From the IMG/VR virus record IMGVR_UViG_3300028377_000039, positions 1 through 29,819 of that record: DNA of 29,819 nt. One strand, given 5' to 3'. Source of the DNA: a virus. Made by a program: the position numbers and the translations under genes. Positions 1,701 to 29,357 of this stretch are shown here, in pieces. Each line of letters opens with the position of its first letter. Position 1 is the first letter of the stretch. The notes under the pieces are model-generated. The model did no database searches, had not been told where the DNA came from, and was given only the letters and a program-made list of their open reading frames with translations.

Positions 1701-3881
1701 ATGTATAACAAATTGAAAAAAGAGTCTGGGAAATTACCAGAAGTTAAAATGTCAGTTTCAGATGACGGTGACGGTCCTACTGGAAGTGGTAGTGGTAAGA
1801 AAAATATTGGTAAGGGAAAAGATTCCAAATCAAAAAAATCCACAACACCTGTTTTGGATTCCTTCGGAAGGGATTTAACAATTTTAGCCAATGAGGGTAA
1901 ATTAGATCCTATAATCGGAAGACAGAAAGAAATCGATAGGGTTTCACAAATCTTATCTAGACGTAAGAAAAACAATCCTATCTTAATAGGTGAACCTGGT
2001 GTTGGTAAAACAGCAGTTGCTGAGGGATTAGCCCTTAAAATAATGGAAAAGAAAGTTTCTCGAATCCTTTTCGATAAAAGGATTATAACTTTAGATTTAG
2101 GAACGTTAGTAGCGGGTACTAAATATAGAGGTCAATTCGAAGAAAGGATGAAGTCTATAATGGATGAAGTTCAAAAAAATGATAATATCATCTTATTTAT
2201 AGATGAGATACACACCATGGTTGGTGCGGGTGGGACATCTGGATCATTGGATGCAGCGAATATATTAAAACCATCTCTTGCAAGAGGTGAAATGCAATGT
2301 ATTGGAGCAACAACTCTTGATGAATATAGACAACATATTGAAAAGGATGGAGCATTAGCAAGACGTTTTCAAAAGGTTGTAGTTGATCCAACATCTCCAG
2401 AAGATACAATGACTATTCTTGAGAATATAAAGGATAAATATGAGAGTCATCACAATGTAACATATAGTGATGAAGCATTAGCAGCATGTGTTAAATTAAC
2501 TGAGAGATATATAACCGATAGAAACTTACCTGATAAAGCAATTGATGCTTTGGATGAAACAGGTTCAAGGGTTCATATATCTAATATCATTGTACCTAAA
2601 GCAATCACAGATACTGAAGATAAAATTAGTAAAATTGGTATAGAGAAGAAAAAAGCTATCCAATCTCAGAAGTACGAAGAAGCAGCAGACCTTAGAGATT
2701 TTGAAAAAGAATTAGATTCTAAATTAGAAAAGGAAAAGGAAAAATGGGAAGAATCATTAAAGAAAAATAGAAAACTTGTTTCCGAAAGAGAAGTTTCAGA
2801 AGTTGTTTCTATGATGTGTGGTGTACCAGTTGATAGAGTTTCAGAAGATGAAGGTAGTAAATTAGTTGACCTTGATAAAACTATTAAAAATAAAGTTGTA
2901 GGACAAGATGAAGCTGTTCAGAAAGTAGTTAAAGCTATTAAAAGAAACAGAAGTGGTCTTAAAGATCCTAATACTCCAATAGGAACATTTATATTCCTTG
3001 GTGATACAGGGGTAGGTAAAACCCAACTGGCTAAAATTTTAGCTGAGAATATGTTTGAGGGTAAAGATTCTTTGATTAGAATCGATATGTCAGAATATAT
3101 GGAGAAATTCTCAGTATCTCGACTTATCGGAGCACCTCCAGGATATGTAGGACACGATGAGGGTGGTCAATTAACAGAAAAGGTTAGAAATAACCCATAT
3201 AGTATTATACTATTAGATGAGATAGAGAAAGCTCATCCAGACGTATTTAATCTATTGTTACAAGTACTTGATGAGGGTACTCTTACAGATAGTTTAGGAC
3301 GTAAAATAAACTTCAAAAATACTATTGTTATTATGACATCTAATATTGGTTCTCGACAACTAAGTGAGTTTGGAACAGGTGTAGGTTTTGCTACAGGGTC
3401 ATCAAAAACAAAAGAAGAAGAAAATTCTAAGGGTGTTATCCAAAGTGCTTTGAAGAAAGCATTCGCTCCTGAGTTCTTAAACAGAGTTGATGATGTTATT
3501 ATGTTCAGAAAATTAGATAAAAAAGATATATCAGAAATCATAGATATTGAATTAGAAAAATTATCAGAAAGAGTTGAAGGACTTGGGTTTAAAATGAAAT
3601 TCAATAAGAAGGTTAGGAATTATATTGTTGAGAAAGGATTTTCTAAAGAGTACGGAGCTAGACCTTTAAAAAGAGCTATTCAAAAGTATATTGAAGATGT
3701 AGTTGCAGAAGAAATGATAAATAATACAAAAATTTCAGAAGGATCAGTTATATCTATTGGATATGATAGTAAGGAGGAAGAGGTTACAGTTAAAATAACT
3801 GAACCAAAAACGAGATCAAATAAATCATCTAAGTCTGATGATAATGATGATAGTAATGTTAACCCAAAAGAAGAAGTATAA
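1701..3881 (+). CDS. clpC: ClpC-like AAA+ unfoldase without N-domain
   Basis: This 726-residue double-AAA+ Clp/Hsp100 protein should unfold substrates with ATP and thread them into ClpP. Domain D1 carries Walker A GEPGVGKT (97-104) and Walker B ILFIDE (164-169). A UVR-like coiled middle region follows (about 315-360). D2 has Walker A GDTGVGKT (434-441), Walker B IILLDE (502-507) and the ClpP-docking tripeptide VGF (561-563). Wording such as PVLDSFGRDLT and ILSRRKKNNPILIGEPGVGK resembles Bacteroidota ClpC. Cellular ClpC is about 810-850 residues. Here the whole Clp_N repeat domain is absent and replaced by about 48 low-complexity residues rich in Gly, Ser, Lys and Asp. The C-terminus ends in an acidic Ser/Asp/Asn tail. 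The clpP gene follows after 27 bases, which supports a working pair. An identity as ClpA is less likely because of the middle domain. Confidence 0.93.
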   Translation: MYNKLKKESGKLPEVKMSVSDDGDGPTGSGSGKKNIGKGKDSKSKKSTTPVLDSFGRDLTILANEGKLDPIIGRQKEIDRVSQILSRRKKNNPILIGEPGVGKTAVAEGLALKIMEKKVSRILFDKRIITLDLGTLVAGTKYRGQFEERMKSIMDEVQKNDNIILFIDEIHTMVGAGGTSGSLDAANILKPSLARGEMQCIGATTLDEYRQHIEKDGALARRFQKVVVDPTSPEDTMTILENIKDKYESHHNVTYSDEALAACVKLTERYITDRNLPDKAIDALDETGSRVHISNIIVPKAITDTEDKISKIGIEKKKAIQSQKYEEAADLRDFEKELDSKLEKEKEKWEESLKKNRKLVSEREVSEVVSMMCGVPVDRVSEDEGSKLVDLDKTIKNKVVGQDEAVQKVVKAIKRNRSGLKDPNTPIGTFIFLGDTGVGKTQLAKILAENMFEGKDSLIRIDMSEYMEKFSVSRLIGAPPGYVGHDEGGQLTEKVRNNPYSIILLDEIEKAHPDVFNLLLQVLDEGTLTDSLGRKINFKNTIVIMTSNIGSRQLSEFGTGVGFATGSSKTKEEENSKGVIQSALKKAFAPEFLNRVDDVIMFRKLDKKDISEIIDIELEKLSERVEGLGFKMKFNKKVRNYIVEKGFSKEYGARPLKRAIQKYIEDVVAEEMINNTKISEGSVISIGYDSKEEEVTVKITEPKTRSNKSSKSDDNDDSNVNPKEEV

Positions 3882-3894
3882 AACTTCTTCTTTT
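3866..3894 (+). terminator. hairpin across the clpC stop codon
   Basis: A perfect 12-bp inverted repeat (AAAAGAAGAAGT / ACTTCTTCTTTT) with a five-base loop spans the clpC stop codon. It ends in TTTT, 15 bases before the clpP start. It could be a weak intrinsic terminator or attenuator that sets the clpC:clpP ratio, or an mRNA stability element. Confidence 0.4.
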
Positions 3895-3908
3895 ATAAAC
3901 CAATTAAA

Positions 3909-4676
3909 ATGGATTTAAATAAAGAATTTTATGAATATGCTACAAAGCATCATAACATTAAAGCGGGGGTCTTAGACCAACACTTTGGGTTTGATGTGAA
4001 ATCTGGTATAGATGCTAGTGTTCCTAGCATAGAAGCAAGTATGACACCTTATATCTTAGAAGAAAGAAAAATGAGGGTTACTCAAATGGATATCTTCTCA
4101 AGATTGATGAGAGATAGAATTATATGGCTTGCTGGACCAGTTAATGATAGAATGTCAACAGTAGCTCAAGCACAATTAATGTTTCTTGATGACACAGAGA
4201 AAAAAGATATAACTCTACATATAGATTCACCAGGTGGGTCTGTTAAAAGTGGTCTTTCGATTGTTGATGTCATGGATTATATAAAATCCGACATAGCAAC
4301 TGTTAATACTGGAATGTGTGCTTCAATGGGGTCAGTACTCTTAGGAGCAGGGACAAAAGGTAAGAGGTCAAGTTTAAGGTTTTCACAAGTAATGTGTCAC
4401 CAAGTATCACATGGTACTCATGGTAATATCCAAGATACACGGATAACACATAAAGAAGGTGAAAAAGCTAATTATATTCTTGGTAGATTACTTGCACAAT
4501 ATAGTGGTAAAGGATTTAAAGAATATATGGAGACTGTTGTTAGAGATAAATGGTATACTTCAACAGAAGCTAAAAACTTCGGTCTTATTGATGAAGTTAT
4601 AGAATCTAAAAATTCAACTATTGATGAGTTACTAGAAGGGTTTGATGAGTATTATTCTGAAATGAATAAAATTTAA
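3909..4676 (+). CDS. clpP: ClpP-type serine protease subunit
   Basis: This 255-residue protein aligns by eye with ClpP, the barrel peptidase that degrades proteins fed to it by Clp unfoldases. The triad is present: Ser139 in MCASMGS, His164 in MCHQ, and Asp213 in VRDKW. The oxyanion-side loop DSPGGSV (106-112) and GAGTKGKRSSL are also conserved. It has about 45-50 extra N-terminal residues before the usual MTPYILEER start, possibly a processed propeptide. Val follows HQ where Pro is usual. It follows the clpC-like gene by 27 bases and is followed two bases later by another gene, so it is probably co-transcribed. Bacteroidota ClpP is the closest type I recognise. Confidence 0.93.
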   Translation: MDLNKEFYEYATKHHNIKAGVLDQHFGFDVKSGIDASVPSIEASMTPYILEERKMRVTQMDIFSRLMRDRIIWLAGPVNDRMSTVAQAQLMFLDDTEKKDITLHIDSPGGSVKSGLSIVDVMDYIKSDIATVNTGMCASMGSVLLGAGTKGKRSSLRFSQVMCHQVSHGTHGNIQDTRITHKEGEKANYILGRLLAQYSGKGFKEYMETVVRDKWYTSTEAKNFGLIDEVIESKNSTIDELLEGFDEYYSEMNKI

Positions 4677-6543: not shown

Positions 6544-7131
6544 ATGTTCAAAAGTATAGATCTAAATAAATTTGTATTTAAAGTATTAATAGCTAATGTG
6601 GTATTATATATAATATCACTATTTTTAAGCGAACATGATTTGGTTAAAATGTATGGGTTCAGCTTTTATTCTGAAGATTTTAACATTATCCAGTCTTTAA
6701 CCAGTATGTTTTTACATGGTGGATTTTCTCACCTATTCTTTAATATGTTAGTTCTTTTAATATTCGGATATAGTATTGAAGAGGATATAGGGACAAAAAA
6801 AATAATATTTCTATACTTAATAAGTGGATTATCTGGTTGGTTTATCGATTCATTAATACATGGGCATCCAAGTATAGGATCATCAGGAGCTGTTAGTGGG
6901 ATAATGGCATCAACCCTAATAATATTCCCAAAAAAAGAGATATCATTATTTTTCTTACCATTCAAATTTAAACTTAAATGGTTAGTTATTCTTTATTTTA
7001 TAGTAGAAATATTTAAAGCATTCTCATTTTCAGATGATGGTATATCCCATTTTTGCCATATAGGTGGTTTTATAGGTGGGTATTTATATACTTTATATTT
7101 AAAAGATGGAAAAATGAAGTTAAAATTTTGA
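6544..7131 (+). CDS. rhomboid-family intramembrane serine protease
   Basis: This 195-residue, very hydrophobic protein has about six predicted membrane helices. It carries the rhomboid signatures: His63 and Asn67 in HGGFSHLFFNML, the catalytic Ser114 in GSSGAVSG (112-119, GxSG), and His172 in CHIGGFIGGYLY. Rhomboids cut substrates within the membrane. The length fits a minimal six-helix bacterial rhomboid. The start lies after an A/T-rich leader (AAATAATTAATAA) without a Shine-Dalgarno site. The catalytic residues are intact, so activity is plausible. A role in superinfection exclusion, membrane quality control or cleavage of a host protein is speculation. Confidence 0.9.
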   Translation: MFKSIDLNKFVFKVLIANVVLYIISLFLSEHDLVKMYGFSFYSEDFNIIQSLTSMFLHGGFSHLFFNMLVLLIFGYSIEEDIGTKKIIFLYLISGLSGWFIDSLIHGHPSIGSSGAVSGIMASTLIIFPKKEISLFFLPFKFKLKWLVILYFIVEIFKAFSFSDDGISHFCHIGGFIGGYLYTLYLKDGKMKLKF

Positions 7132-8875: not shown

Positions 8876-9727
8876 ATGATGAAAAAAGAAAAAGAGAGAG
8901 ATCCTGTTGATTTAACTAAACAAATACAAATCTTCAAGGAAAAGACGGGGAAAGATTTCACAGAATTCTATAATAAATACAGACCCAAATTAATATATTT
9001 CGCTAATAAATTTTGTAAAGATGAAGACCAAGCAGTTGATTATGCTGAGGAATCATTTATAAATAGTTTAGAGAAAATAGATACGTATGATAGTGAAAAA
9101 GCAGGTTTTTCAACATGGCTCTTCACAATAGCTAGAAATCATATATTTCAAAATATCAAAAAAAGTAAACGAATGCCTACTATATCAATGGATACTAAGA
9201 TTGATGAAGAAGGTACAACTATAAAAGATTTTATATCAGGTAATGATATAGAAGATCAGTTAAATAAGGAAAAGAGAGATTTGGATGTTAAGAAAGCTGA
9301 GATAATGATGGAAAGTATAGAAACTTTAAAAAAACCATATAGGAATGTTATAAAAATGCGTGAGGTCGATAGAATGAGTTATCGTGATATAGCATCTAAA
9401 TTAGGAGAAGATAAAGTTTTAACTCTGGTTATTGATGATTTCCAATTAAATGAAAAAATAGAATTACCCGAACCAATAAGTAGTATTTATGAAGTGGTTG
9501 ATTCAGAAGGTAATATTGTAGAAATTGACTTTTCTTTATATGAGGGTGATACTAAAAAAACACCATTTTTAACTCATATAAAAATAAAACAGAAAGGTAA
9601 ATTCCATCTTAAATGTAGAACTCCTAAAAATCTATCAACTGTTAAATCTCAGATCAGGAATGGTCGTTTGAAACTACAAGATATGGTAAAGGATAGATTT
9701 AAAAGATTAGATCAAATGTATGTTTAA
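8876..9727 (+). CDS. phage sigma factor with domain inside sigma-4
   Basis: This 283-residue sigma-70 family (ECF-like) factor should direct host RNA polymerase to phage promoters. Region 2 spans about 28-100 (FYNKYRPKLIYFANKFCKDE, then YAEESFINSLEKI and FSTWLFTIARNHIF). Region 4 begins at about 143 (IETLKKPYRNVIKMREVDRM, then SYRDIASKLGE), where the DNA-recognition helix should follow at once. Instead about 74 residues (roughly 178-251, bases 9407-9628) intervene, with alternating strands such as KVLTLVIDDFQ and THIKIKQKGKFHLK. Then the expected NLSTVKSQIRNGRLKLQDMV resumes. The reading frame is intact, so this is an in-frame domain insertion in the HTH turn. It lacks the intein-type Cys/Ser start and His-Asn end. 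The gene stands alone between two terminators. Confidence 0.85.
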   Translation: MMKKEKERDPVDLTKQIQIFKEKTGKDFTEFYNKYRPKLIYFANKFCKDEDQAVDYAEESFINSLEKIDTYDSEKAGFSTWLFTIARNHIFQNIKKSKRMPTISMDTKIDEEGTTIKDFISGNDIEDQLNKEKRDLDVKKAEIMMESIETLKKPYRNVIKMREVDRMSYRDIASKLGEDKVLTLVIDDFQLNEKIELPEPISSIYEVVDSEGNIVEIDFSLYEGDTKKTPFLTHIKIKQKGKFHLKCRTPKNLSTVKSQIRNGRLKLQDMVKDRFKRLDQMYV

Positions 9728-9749: not shown

Positions 9750-9788
9750 AAAAGAACTCCATATGTTTTAAACATATGGAGTTCTTTT
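9750..9788 (+). terminator. perfect 19-bp hairpin after the sigma gene
   Basis: Bases 9750-9768 are an exact inverted repeat of 9770-9788, centred on 9769, ending in TTTTT. It works on paper as a terminator for the sigma gene. It also contains the ATG at 9776 that would be the longest start of the next gene, so it may also block translation of the endonuclease from read-through transcripts. Confidence 0.75.
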
Positions 9789-9817
9789 TATATATACTAA
9801 CAAAGGTCAGATCGGGA

Positions 9818-11524
9818 ATGGTAACAAGGGATTATATAGATGGGATAATAAACAAAAGTAGTAATAATAATCAAATATGTCAGGCTCTCAGGAATAGGTC
9901 TGATGAGGTTATAGAAGTTATATGTAACTATCTTGGTATAATTTATATTGGTGATATAACATTAATGCAGATGATTTATCATTATAAAGAAGGTATAACT
10001 GAAATAGAGAAGTGTATATGTGATAAGAACCGAAAGTATCATTGTTATGGGTATAGGAAAACTTGTGGGGATGAGAAGTGTATTAATGAAGTTAGAGAAT
10101 TATCAAAAAAGAAAACCTGTTTAGATAAATATGGTAAGGAATATGTCACACAAGTAGATACGATTAAAGAAAAGATGTCAAATTCTATTTTCGAAAGATA
10201 TGGAGTTTATAACCCCACTAAATCTATGGAAGTTATAAATAAAAGAAAGGAGAATAATTTCGAAAAATATGGATATTATGAAACCCTATCCGTTCCATCG
10301 ATAAGAAAAAAAATAGAAGAAACAAATTTAGATAGATTTGGGCACTTATCTCCATTGGGATCAATAGAGATAAGAGAGAAGATAAAGAAAACAAATTTGT
10401 TGATTTTTGGGTTTGATAATCCACAAAAAAATCCACAAATAAAAAAGAAAACCATGGAGACTATGATGGATAATAATATCATAGATAGGGAAAATAATCT
10501 AAGGGATATGGGATATCATATTTTATCTAATGTGGGAGATACATATGATCTTAGATGTATGGATGGGCATGATTTCACAATAAGTAGAAGTTGGTTAAAT
10601 TTAAAACTGAGGAACAATATCACTATTTGTAATGAGTGTATGGGTATATCATCTAAATCAATAGAAGAGATTAATATTTTAAAATTCATAAAGGATAATT
10701 ACACCGGTGAGGTAATCCATAATGATAGAATGGTATTAGATGGGATGGAGATAGATATATACCTACCAGAATTAAAATTGGGGATAGAATATAATGGACT
10801 ATACTGGCATTCCGAATTATTTAAGGAGGATAATTACCATTCAGATAAAAGTAATAAATGTGAGAGTTATGGAGTTCAATTAATCCATATATTCGAGGAT
10901 GAATGGCTCTTCAAAAGAGATATTATTAAATCTAGATTATTAAATTTATTGGGAGGGTCTAATAAGATATATGCTAGGAAATGCGAAATAAGGAAAATTG
11001 ATGATAATAAACTAATAAGAGAATTTCTATTGGGAAATCATACCCAGGGATTTGTGGGCAGTAGAATTAAATTGGGACTCTTTTATAATGATGAGTTAGT
11101 ATCTCTTATGACTTTTGGTAATTTGAGAAAAAATATGGGTCAAACATCAAAAGAAGGTAGTTTTGAACTATTGAGATTTTGTAATAAATTAAACACATCT
11201 GTTGTGGGTGGAGCTTCTAGGTTATTTGAATATTTCATGAAAAACCATTCACCTAAATATATTCTCAGTTATGCTGATCGTAGATGGAGTAATGGTAATT
11301 TATATGAAAAATTGGGATTCGAATTTAATGAAAATACCGTTCCGAATTTTTATTATGTTAAGAGTGATAAGAATCGATTGAATCGATTTAATTTCAGAAA
11401 GGATATTTTAGTCAAAGAGGGGTATGATAATAATAAAACCGAACGCTTAATAATGTTAGAGAGAGGGTATTATAGAGTATATGATTGTGGATCAAAACGA
11501 TATTCAATCCTTTTTGACAACTAA
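9818..11524 (+). CDS. Vsr/Hef-like homing endonuclease
   Basis: This is a large selfish-nuclease protein of about 568 residues. The first half holds repeated Tyr-Gly units (CLDKYGKEYVTQVDTIKEK, IFERYGVYNPTKSMEVINK, NFEKYGYYETLSVPSIRKK, NLDRFGHLSPLGSIEIREK), a linker type seen in phage homing nucleases. The second half has a Vsr-like nuclease core: MEIDIYLPELKLGIEYNGL, then YWHSE and QLIHIFEDEW. The C-terminal block contains IYARKCEIR, ELLRFCNKLNTSVVGGASRL, YADRRWSNGNLYEKLGF and RGYYRVYDCG, which I recognise from T4-type phage mobile endonucleases. The frame is open from an ATG at 9776, but that codon is buried in the hairpin. I prefer the ATG at 9818 (MVTRDYIDGI). A stem-loop cluster and terminator follow the gene. 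Confidence 0.85.
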   Translation: MVTRDYIDGIINKSSNNNQICQALRNRSDEVIEVICNYLGIIYIGDITLMQMIYHYKEGITEIEKCICDKNRKYHCYGYRKTCGDEKCINEVRELSKKKTCLDKYGKEYVTQVDTIKEKMSNSIFERYGVYNPTKSMEVINKRKENNFEKYGYYETLSVPSIRKKIEETNLDRFGHLSPLGSIEIREKIKKTNLLIFGFDNPQKNPQIKKKTMETMMDNNIIDRENNLRDMGYHILSNVGDTYDLRCMDGHDFTISRSWLNLKLRNNITICNECMGISSKSIEEINILKFIKDNYTGEVIHNDRMVLDGMEIDIYLPELKLGIEYNGLYWHSELFKEDNYHSDKSNKCESYGVQLIHIFEDEWLFKRDIIKSRLLNLLGGSNKIYARKCEIRKIDDNKLIREFLLGNHTQGFVGSRIKLGLFYNDELVSLMTFGNLRKNMGQTSKEGSFELLRFCNKLNTSVVGGASRLFEYFMKNHSPKYILSYADRRWSNGNLYEKLGFEFNENTVPNFYYVKSDKNRLNRFNFRKDILVKEGYDNNKTERLIMLERGYYRVYDCGSKRYSILFDN

Positions 11525-13266: not shown

Positions 13267-13279
13267 TTTATATATTAAA
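13267..13279 (-). promoter_or_regulatory. TTTAATATATAAA start-proximal motif
   Basis: An exact minus-strand copy of the 13-mer found at 1603-1615, again two bases before an ATG (13264). Confidence 0.4.
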
Positions 13280-18480: not shown

Positions 18481-18493
18481 TTTAATATATAAA
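18481..18493 (+). promoter_or_regulatory. TTTAATATATAAA start-proximal motif
   Basis: An exact plus-strand copy of the 13-mer, four bases before the ATG at 18498. Having the same motif on both strands, always facing a start codon, argues that it is functional. Confidence 0.45.
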
Positions 18494-19983: not shown

Positions 19984-19996
19984 CTTAATATATAAA
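19984..19996 (+). promoter_or_regulatory. CTTAATATATAAA motif
   Basis: A 12-of-13 match to the recurrent motif, 29 bases before the ATG at 20026, in the divergent gap between a leftward and a rightward gene. Confidence 0.35.
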
Positions 19997-25477: not shown

Positions 25478-25881
25478 TAAGATTAGCTATGCGTAAACAT
25501 GGTAAAGTTAATTTCACAAGGGAAATATTAGAATTCTGTGAGGATAGGATAGAACTAAGTGATAGAGAATGTGAAATAGTTAGTTTAAATGAAATATCCA
25601 AAGTTGATTGTATGAATATGAGAGTTGGTGGGACTGGAGGAGCTTCCAAAGCGGGTAATGACGCTTATTTATATAGATTACATAATGATGATGAATTCCG
25701 AAAAATGATTACTGAAAAAGCTAAGGCTAATACCATAAGATTAATTAAAGAGGGTAAGTTAAAACCTTGGACTAAGGATAATTATTATGATTGGAATGGT
25801 AAAAAACATTCTGATGAAACAAAGAAAAAAATGTCCGAAGATAAGAAAGGTACTGGTATGGGTGAATCAAATTCTCAATAT

Positions 25882-26205
25882 GGTACTTGTTGGATAACAA
25901 GGAATGGTGAGAATAAAAAAATCAATAAAGAATTGCTTGACATATACATTATTGATGAATGGATTAAGGGAAGGGTATCTAAGAAAGGTACTGGTATGGG
26001 TGAATTAAATTCCCAATATGGTACTTGTTGGATAGTAAAGAATGGTGAGAATAAGAAAATTAACAAAGAATTGCTTGATACATACATTATTGATGGATGG
26101 ATTAAGGGAAAGGGTACTTGTTGGATAACAAGGAATGGTAAAAATAAAAAAATCAATAAAGAATTGCTTGATACATACATTATTGATGGATGGGTCAAAG
26201 GAATA
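25882..26205 (+). repeat. three direct repeats in the endonuclease C-terminus
   Basis: A unit of about 93 bases encoding GTCWITRNGENKKINKELLD plus YIIDGWIKG starts at 25882, 26020 and 26113. The first two copies are joined by a 45-base linker whose first part (KGTGMGE-NSQY) is also repeated at 25846 and 25984. The copies are nearly identical in DNA, so the expansion is recent or kept alike by recombination. Confidence 0.85.
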
Positions 26206-26262
26206 ACTAAGAAAATTAAAAATGGTATGGGTAATTAGATTAATATTACCCATCGGATTAAT

Positions 26263-27482: not shown

Positions 27483-28125
27483 TGGATAGTGAAATAAAAA
27501 TAGGGGATTTAGTCAGAATGGATAGTGAAAATACTAGGTATTCAGAATCCACTAATAACCCAAGAGATTGTTATGGATTTGTTTATTCTATAAGTCATTT
27601 TACTTTGATAAGCGTTCGTTGGCTTAATGGTAATAAAAATGGTGGTTATGTGATTGATAGGGATTTAATTAAAATACCCAAAAAGGAAAAATGTAGGGTC
27701 ACTTATATAGATGGTCAAGTATATATTGAATCTAAATTCCTTTTAGATAATTTTGATAGAATACCAGATATAGTTCCACATATAATCCTATCAAATTGGA
27801 TTCGATCATACCAAAAGATATCCAATCTAAATTGTTAGGTATTGAAAATGATCCTTATATTTTATGTTCTGATCCATCGTGGTCACGTTTATACCCAAAC
27901 TCTCAATCACATTTGGATAATAAAATAAAGGACTTTTTCAATCAATTCAAAAAACTATATGATAGGTTTGGTAAAATAGAATATGTGAATTGCTATTATA
28001 AAACTAATTTCTTAGAATTCATTTTTAATGATAATGAAATATCTATGCATAATTATTATTTAGATAAAGTTCATAATTCAAATCCTTCTTACTTAATTGA
28101 AAAAGTCGAAATAGATACTTATTGA
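27482..28125 (+). pseudogene. frameshifted paralogue of the upstream gene
   Basis: The first frame (27482-27838) gives MDSEIKIGDLVRMDSENTRY, NPRDCYGFV and IKIPKKEKCRVTYIDGQVYI, then diverges after SKFLLDNFD. The second frame, one base back and open from 27760 to 28125, gives LDSIIPKDIQSKLLGIEND and then KIKDFFNQFKKLYDRFGKIE, YVNCYYKTNF, matching the paralogue's C-terminus. The shift lies between 27760 and 27838. A single indel (mutation or sequencing error) explains it; programmed frameshifting is not excluded. It overlaps the end of the leftward glycosylase gene by seven bases. Confidence 0.65.
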
Positions 28126-28883
28126 TATTTACTATTGAACCAAAATGTTCTATTATTAGAATCTTTTATTTTAGATCCTTTACCGTAACACTTTATCCAA
28201 TTATTGAAGCTTGTCTTATCTTTACCAAATGGGTTCTCCCAATCTTTAAGTTGTCCACCACCAAGTTTATAAGATTCCTCACATACCGATTTACATAAGT
28301 CTAAGATAATAGGATTGTCTTCAATAAATTCTTTCCCACTTTTGAATGGGGTATCATCTATCCTATATAGTATCTCAGCCCTTAAATAATTACCTATCCC
28401 ATTGAAGTATCTTTGATCAAGTAAGGACTCATAGATAGGTTTTTTAAATACTTTTATCCTATCAATATCTTTGTATATTTTATCCTTAAAATTTGTTAAG
28501 TCATATATTGGATCATATCCCCTATTATTAGATTTAAACCCACCTAACCTAAACCTTGGACCTAAATAACCACCATATAATAGTAAAGACATATTACTTT
28601 TACTATCAAATCGGAGCCTAGTGAATTTTATAGTATCAACATCATCTGTGGATATCCATGTCCAATTTCCTGACATACCCATAAATACAGAAATTTTTTG
28701 ATCCCTTATATTAATACTTATTTCTTTTCCATACGATTCAGATATTATTTTAAACCCACCTTCTATATTTGATTCTTCAGTAATATTACCCTTTTCGACA
28801 AAATAACACTTATCGAATTCTTCATTTTCACATTTCTGATTTATATAATCAGACATTAATCTTAACTCTGGTAATTCTGGCAT
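28119..28883 (-). CDS. Fpg/Nei-family DNA glycosylase
   Basis: The start is set at 28883 because mature family members begin with Pro-Glu (MPELPE), the Pro being the catalytic nucleophile; the frame extends further but not meaningfully. The 254 residues carry Pro2/Glu3, Lys53 in YGKEISI, MGMSG (68-72) and the H2TH motif (YESLLDQRYFNGIGNYLRAE, then IL). The C-terminal finger reads KCYGKGSKIKDSNNRTFWFN, then SKYQ. The Arg-Thr turn is kept, but three of four zinc cysteines are missing, so it is a 'zincless' finger. The enzyme should remove oxidised bases and cut at the resulting site. Confidence 0.85.
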   Translation of the reverse strand: MPELPELRLMSDYINQKCENEEFDKCYFVEKGNITEESNIEGGFKIISESYGKEISINIRDQKISVFMGMSGNWTWISTDDVDTIKFTRLRFDSKSNMSLLLYGGYLGPRFRLGGFKSNNRGYDPIYDLTNFKDKIYKDIDRIKVFKKPIYESLLDQRYFNGIGNYLRAEILYRIDDTPFKSGKEFIEDNPIILDLCKSVCEESYKLGGGQLKDWENPFGKDKTSFNNWIKCYGKGSKIKDSNNRTFWFNSKYQ

Positions 28884-28967
28884 ACTTTTAATATTAGATA
28901 AATGAATATTAGTTTTGGTAATTACTATATTTATTACTATTTTTATAATTGATGATAATAATAATAT

Positions 28968-29357
28968 ATGATTTATAAAGATAAACATGGTGAGATACAT
29001 TTAATTGGAGATGATAAGAAAGGGATTTCTTTATCGAGTGGATATTACAAAGACTATAGATGGGATTCAGTAGAAAATTCGGATAAATGGATAAAGTTAA
29101 ATGAATTAGTAATAAAACAACCAACTACAAAACAAAGAACTATTAGTGTTGACGGAAAAGAACATGGATTTTATATTAAGGATAGGAATAATATCATATA
29201 CAACTCTAGAAATGGAAAAAGACTTATAAAATCATTAAAAGGTTTTATCAATGGTAATTTTTGTTCTAGATTATTAATCTACCATACTTTACCAAAAAGT
29301 TATTATGGGTATATTACTATTAAAAATAAACCAGTTAGTATTAAAATTAAAATATAA
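28968..29357 (+). CDS. tandem paralogue 1, hypothetical, 129 aa
   Basis: The first of three related genes. It starts MIYKDKHGEIHLIGDDKKGI, continues SLSSGYYKDYRW and GFYIKDRNNIIYNSRNGKRL, and ends KPVSIKIKI. It is beta-rich. It is divergent from the glycosylase gene, with an 84-base AT-rich gap that must hold both promoters. No family was recognised. Confidence 0.65.
   Translation: MIYKDKHGEIHLIGDDKKGISLSSGYYKDYRWDSVENSDKWIKLNELVIKQPTTKQRTISVDGKEHGFYIKDRNNIIYNSRNGKRLIKSLKGFINGNFCSRLLIYHTLPKSYYGYITIKNKPVSIKIKI

Follow-up and report, generated by a model that had tools for sequence, protein, structure and literature searches.

The window, the whole 29,819-nucleotide stretch of DNA that we analysed, encodes on its plus strand an ECF-like sigma-70 factor of 283 amino acids (positions 8876–9727). 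A single uninterrupted frame spans the gene, its product matched the RNA polymerase sigma factor family PHROG 1740 (E 6e-20), and Pfam recognised regions 2 and 4 only, regions 1.1 and 3 being absent. The first-pass annotation had described a phage sigma factor with residues inserted in frame in the region 4 helix-turn-helix (HTH), and both the assignment and the intact frame were borne out. Region 2, responsible for -10 recognition and core binding, covers residues 31–99 (8966–9172, +; PF04542, Sigma70_r2, 51.4 bits, E 9.5e-14, cut-off 24). The first part of region 4 covers residues 143–177 (9302–9406, +) and closes with HTH helix 2; the structural model has helices at residues 131–150, 155–164 and 169–175. 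PF08281 (Sigma70_r4_2) matched these residues over profile positions 3–37 of 54 (33.3 bits, E 3.7e-8, cut-off 25.7) and halted at an insert of 74 amino acids. This insert, hereafter type A, occupies residues 178–251 (9407–9628, +); residue 178 begins at 9407 and residue 251 finishes at 9628, exactly as proposed earlier. The HTH recognition helix (NLSTVKSQIRNGR...) and a C-terminal extension follow at residues 252–282 (9629–9721, +; model helix 253–282), and the junctions read SYRDIASKLGE / DKVLTL...CRTPK / NLSTVKSQIRNGR. The two HTH helices are separated by 74 residues, versus the short turn that is a usual trait, rather than a defining criterion, of the ECF-like sigma-70 family.

The ClpA-like gene of the window was closest to those of LR756502 and LR745206 (67%), which together with the relatives of the sigma factor suggests that the window is probably a megaphage fragment. 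By size, LR745206, LR756502, LR756504 and LR756501 correspond to the four largest genomes described by Al-Shayeb et al. 2020, which belong to the Mahaphage clade and for which replication was predicted in Bacteroidetes (PMC7162821).

Several other genes were found in the window. At 1701–4676 (+), a ClpA-like ATPase gene is followed by a ClpP-type protease matching head maturation protease families, possibly forming a phage-encoded Clp pair, and a rhomboid membrane protease gene, here in a phage genome, lies at 6544–7131 (+; Pfam E 2e-31). A large homing endonuclease gene (9776–11524, likely start 9818; PHROG 3339, E 2e-127) directly follows the sigma gene, beyond a terminator-like hairpin. Further along are an endonuclease-like gene (25489–26238, +), in which a NUMOD3 motif and three nearly identical repeats (GTCWITRNGENKKINKELLDTYIIDGWIKG) were noted, and a gene for an Fpg/Nei-like DNA glycosylase (28119–29000, −) whose C-terminus weakly matches the NEIL1 DNA-binding family and which looks unusual for a phage. 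The sequence TTAATATATAAA occurs four times (1603–1614, −; 13267–13278, −; 18482–18493, +; 19985–19996, +), against 0.58 expected from shuffles; each copy sits just upstream of a gene start in the same sense, three of them at most 5 bases from the ATG, and it may be a promoter or start-site motif of the phage. Promoter motif discovery in the window returned a single recurrent motif, AT-rich and without a link to the sigma factor.

Relatives with and without the insert

Homologues of both kinds, with and without the insert, were recovered, as the first-pass annotation had suggested looking for. About 20 relatives, most of them 48–56% identical to the window protein, have contiguous HTH helices (KLGK-NLSTIKSQIRNGR). 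When the flanks of the window protein were likewise joined without the insert, the Sigma70_r4_2 score rose from 33.3 to 48.8 bits, with profile positions 6–54 of 54 matched. The earlier claim that the insert lies between normally adjacent helices is supported both by this completed profile and by the lack of residues at the site in these relatives. The closest matches in the annotated collection came from LR745206 (634 kb), LR756502 (642 kb), LR756504 (636 kb) and LR756501 (735 kb); three of the four lack the insert, and LR756501 carries a different one. Scans of IMG/VR yielded about 20 insert-less contigs, one contig with a homologous insert (L011) and three with the LR756501-type insert (L033, L046 and L052). 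A scan with the recognition-helix pattern returned insert-less members only.

The L011 insert occupies the identical site and is 49% identical to that of the window over the insert region, with EGDTKKTPF and RTPK common to both; these two were the type A sequences that we compared. In the BFVD collection, A0A8D9C9Z7, a 295-amino acid protein of an uncultured marine phage annotated as ECF sigma factor SigW, is 64% identical to the window protein over 283 alignment columns and so bears the same insert. We infer that its source may be Mar_Mega_1 (PMC9723777), a sister to LR756502 and LR745206 (Michniewski et al., PMC9723777).

The second kind of insert, type B, is about 90 amino acids long and was found at the same HTH-turn site in L002, L033, L046 and L052, four phages that include the 735-kb LR756501. 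That 735-kb genome contained one Sigma70_r2 match only. A comparison of types A and B by hhalign, with very thin profiles, gave no similarity. We saw no convincing extra copies of either insert within the same genomes, no plasmid matches covering the insert and no cellular relatives with it, all 27 GTDB matches being distant. A second sigma factor, RpoD-like, 242 amino acids long, with an uninterrupted region 4 and no insert, is encoded at L116 274–1002, in the record of the 464-kb relative L025.

Coding evidence and selection on the insert

Of shuffled 222-base sequences with the composition of the insert, 0.065% remain free of stops, and all five other frames of the insert DNA contain stops. 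Its composition resembles that of the whole gene, and its GC content varies by codon position in a coding-like manner (0.43, 0.24 and 0.11). The type B insert is under purifying selection, as judged from L002 and L033, which differ by 22.5 synonymous and 8.5 non-synonymous changes (dN/dS 0.063). For type A, the window and L011 gave a dN/dS of 0.31 with synonymous sites near-saturated. Between L002 and L046, dN was 0.51 inside the type B insert versus 0.13 outside. The first-pass annotation had allowed that the gene might be decaying; the conserved homologues (L011 and A0A8D9C9Z7) and purifying selection contradict this.

We also considered an intein and rejected it: the insert has 74 amino acids, versus at least about 130 for a splicing domain, its junctions carry no Cys, Ser or Thr but E/D on the N-terminal side and K/N on the C-terminal side, and no Pfam intein family was matched.

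Predicted structure of the region 4 HTH

We utilized AlphaFold2 with 21 sequences to predict the structure of the window protein (mean pLDDT 81, pTM 0.54). The low pTM is probably due to the flexible linker between regions 2 and 4, which was mostly of low confidence. The first-pass annotation had called the insert beta-rich, and the model resolves it into a separate six-stranded beta domain in the HTH turn (strands 178–186, 195–201, 203–209, 219–223, 232–237 and 241–249; block pLDDT about 75–94), although the alignment behind this prediction is thin, with two type A rows. Both HTH helices are kept, at residues 169–175 and from residue 253, and are predicted still to pack, a check that had been proposed earlier. 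With VIA-align, model residues 133–277 superposed on region 4 of sigma-E bound to -35 DNA (2h27_A; Z 9.2, rmsd 3.1 Å, 71 of 71 residues).

The type B model has eight strands (pLDDT 82.5, pTM 0.64). It aligned with 7fcn_A (Z 9.0), 3x0t_B (Z 8.7) and 5gu5 (Z 8.3) over 82–91 residues and may form an eight-stranded antiparallel sandwich, a common arrangement from which we claim no kinship. In the models of both types, a nine-residue first strand starts 1–2 residues past helix 2, and a nine-residue last strand ends 2–3 residues ahead of the recognition helix. Structure searches with the type A model gave lists filled by sigma factors, and nothing convincing was found for either insert in Pfam, PHROGs or PDB sequences. 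We do not believe a weak match to PHROG 27445 (E 0.0036), which spans 34 residues of a functionally uncharacterized protein from a Cellulophaga phage. In HTH complexes the turn comes close to the backbone of the DNA. A clash between insert and DNA is therefore conceivable in a structure modelled without DNA.

Recognition helix and polymerase

Conservation in the window protein is highest in the recognition helix. Residues 252–264 have a mean identity of 93% to the insert-less relatives, versus 54% for region 2; in type B proteins the helix is 82% identical to the insert-less relatives and region 2 is 38–42% identical. Such conservation suggests that the -35 element is still read as before, and -35 recognition is probably unchanged. 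In L011, HTH helix 2 has drifted (YKNIACNQG versus YKDIADELG), with 46% identity to the insert-less relatives compared with 78% for a typical member, and region 4 scored 23.3 bits, just below the Pfam cut-off of 25.7; the HTH of L011 may be weakened. This drift (L011 4409–4765) perhaps compensates for the insert or results from it.

We searched for the RNA polymerase beta' domain PF04983 and found it in 0 of 6 relatives, three of whose records are fragments, versus 14 of 14 control genomes. Its absence from the large relatives suggests that the host RNA polymerase is probably the enzyme with which the sigma factor works. A recent review likewise reports that the sigma factors of jumbo phages lacking an RNA polymerase serve the host polymerase (PMC13282480).

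Phylogeny of the inserts

In a tree of the shared core, the type B carriers formed one clade (100/98), and the window fell outside a clade (89/91) of L011 and 18 insert-less relatives. A clade of the window and L011 was not rejected (p-AU 0.20), and a single clade of all insert carriers was weakly rejected (p-AU 0.02), in a tree limited by long branches and short sequences. Since no similarity between types A and B was found, two gains are the simpler reading, though not a proven one. We put slightly under an even chance on a broader proposal, that the region 4 HTH turn of sigma factors in megaphages is a hotspot for insertions. Two or more unrelated beta domains would have been acquired there independently, each a built-in domain for partner binding or switching beside the -35 element.

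Discussion

We consider it very probable that the insert is genuinely a nested domain and that the sigma factor carrying it works. The explanation that we favor as a whole, with a probability of about 0.7, is a functional sigma factor for the host RNA polymerase that carries a nested docking domain. The ECF-like factor of a Bacteroidota-infecting megaphage would recruit the host polymerase, and a compact beta domain, roughly 74 amino acids long, is nested between its region 4 HTH helices. The end strands of the insert abut these helices, which suggests that the domain ends are probably close enough to stand in for the short turn. The HTH would then form despite the insert, and the recognition helix would read the same -35 element. 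The nested domain would project from the turn beside the -35 DNA and serve as an accessory protein-docking module, whose partner, whether a phage protein, a host protein or the polymerase itself, could tune promoter choice or timing. Docking or regulation as the role of the insert is the more tentative part, somewhat short of even odds. Net charge runs from -14 to -1 across the six inserts, from strongly acidic to near neutral, and this speaks for a protein partner and against the DNA-contacting domain that the first-pass annotation had entertained alongside a regulatory or polymerase-contacting one. Most relatives lack the domain, indicating that the basic function does not require it, and this absence, together with the fast change of type B, fits an accessory or conflict-driven role.

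Judging from sequence and model, we favor docking ahead of auto-inhibition, which we regard as unlikely but as the best of the competing accounts. An auto-inhibitory domain would prevent region 4 from reaching the beta flap or the -35 DNA, a block lifted once a partner, a ligand or proteolysis moves the domain, making the factor a switch that is off by default. The insert directly precedes the recognition helix, the charge of -14 in the type B inserts of L002 and L033 would repel DNA, and inserts that are selected yet missing in relatives would suit such a switch; the near-neutral charges of the type A inserts (-4 and -1) speak against it. Alternatively, the insert could contact upstream DNA itself and widen the promoter sequence read by region 4. 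The general geometry of HTH complexes places the turn beside the -35 element, but the net negative charge of all six inserts makes this improbable, as do searches of Pfam and PHROGs that returned no DNA-binding family. Similarly improbable is a shield against anti-sigma factors of the host or of rival phages, without a role in transcription. Conflict would predict different domains at one site across lineages, as seen here, and the type B insert outpaces the rest of its protein (L002/L046); however, no anti-sigma factor is known for this family, and rapid change is also compatible with loose constraint.

Selection, conservation and coding-like composition exclude, for practical purposes, an intron, a bypassed stretch or decay. 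T4 gene 60 and mobA reportedly provide a precedent for a bypass or mobile element accompanied by a homing endonuclease, and a gene of this kind (PHROG 3339) begins some 50–90 bases past the sigma gene. Nevertheless, the chance that such an element is removed before the protein is made is negligible: the insert is open in frame and conserved as protein (type A at 49% identity, type B at a dN/dS of 0.063), its fold is predicted confidently, an Rfam search gave no intron family and no relevant match, and in L011, L002 and L046 no homing endonuclease or endonuclease-like gene was seen beside the sigma gene among the flanking ORFs that we read. A decaying or misassembled gene, conceivable in a 29.8-kb metagenome fragment, is just as remote given the uninterrupted frame, the conserved recognition helix and the insert at the identical site in an independent contig (L011) and a database protein.

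The turn between HTH helices is usually regarded as one of the places where the motif tolerates change least. Conserved whole domains of two kinds beside an unchanged recognition helix suggest that the HTH motif can be split and that a split HTH may be a natural design for regulated sigma factors. A sigma factor with a nested domain would also offer a testable handle on how megaphages without a polymerase of their own control the host enzyme. In the open-access literature, we found no paper on a domain inserted in a region 4 HTH and no description of sigma regulation by HTH-turn domains.

Among known proteins, A0A8D9C9Z7 carries the same insert as the window protein at 64% identity. The Mahaphages LR745206 and LR756502 and the IMG/VR relatives share a near-identical recognition helix at mostly 48–56% overall identity, but have no insert. 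LR756501, L033, L046 and L052 carry an insert at the same HTH turn that is also predicted to be a beta domain, although with about 90 amino acids and eight strands it has no detectable sequence similarity to type A; this type B domain recalls jelly-roll-like folds (PirA, GOLD and Ena appendage subunits; Z 8–9), without our asserting family membership. In ECF factors, the HTH helices are joined by a short turn. The window protein resembles such factors (E. coli sigma-E 6jbq/2h27, AlgU and SigW) in having regions 2 and 4 only and a region 4 that superposes on DNA-bound sigma-E, and differs from them in the 74 amino acids nested in that turn.
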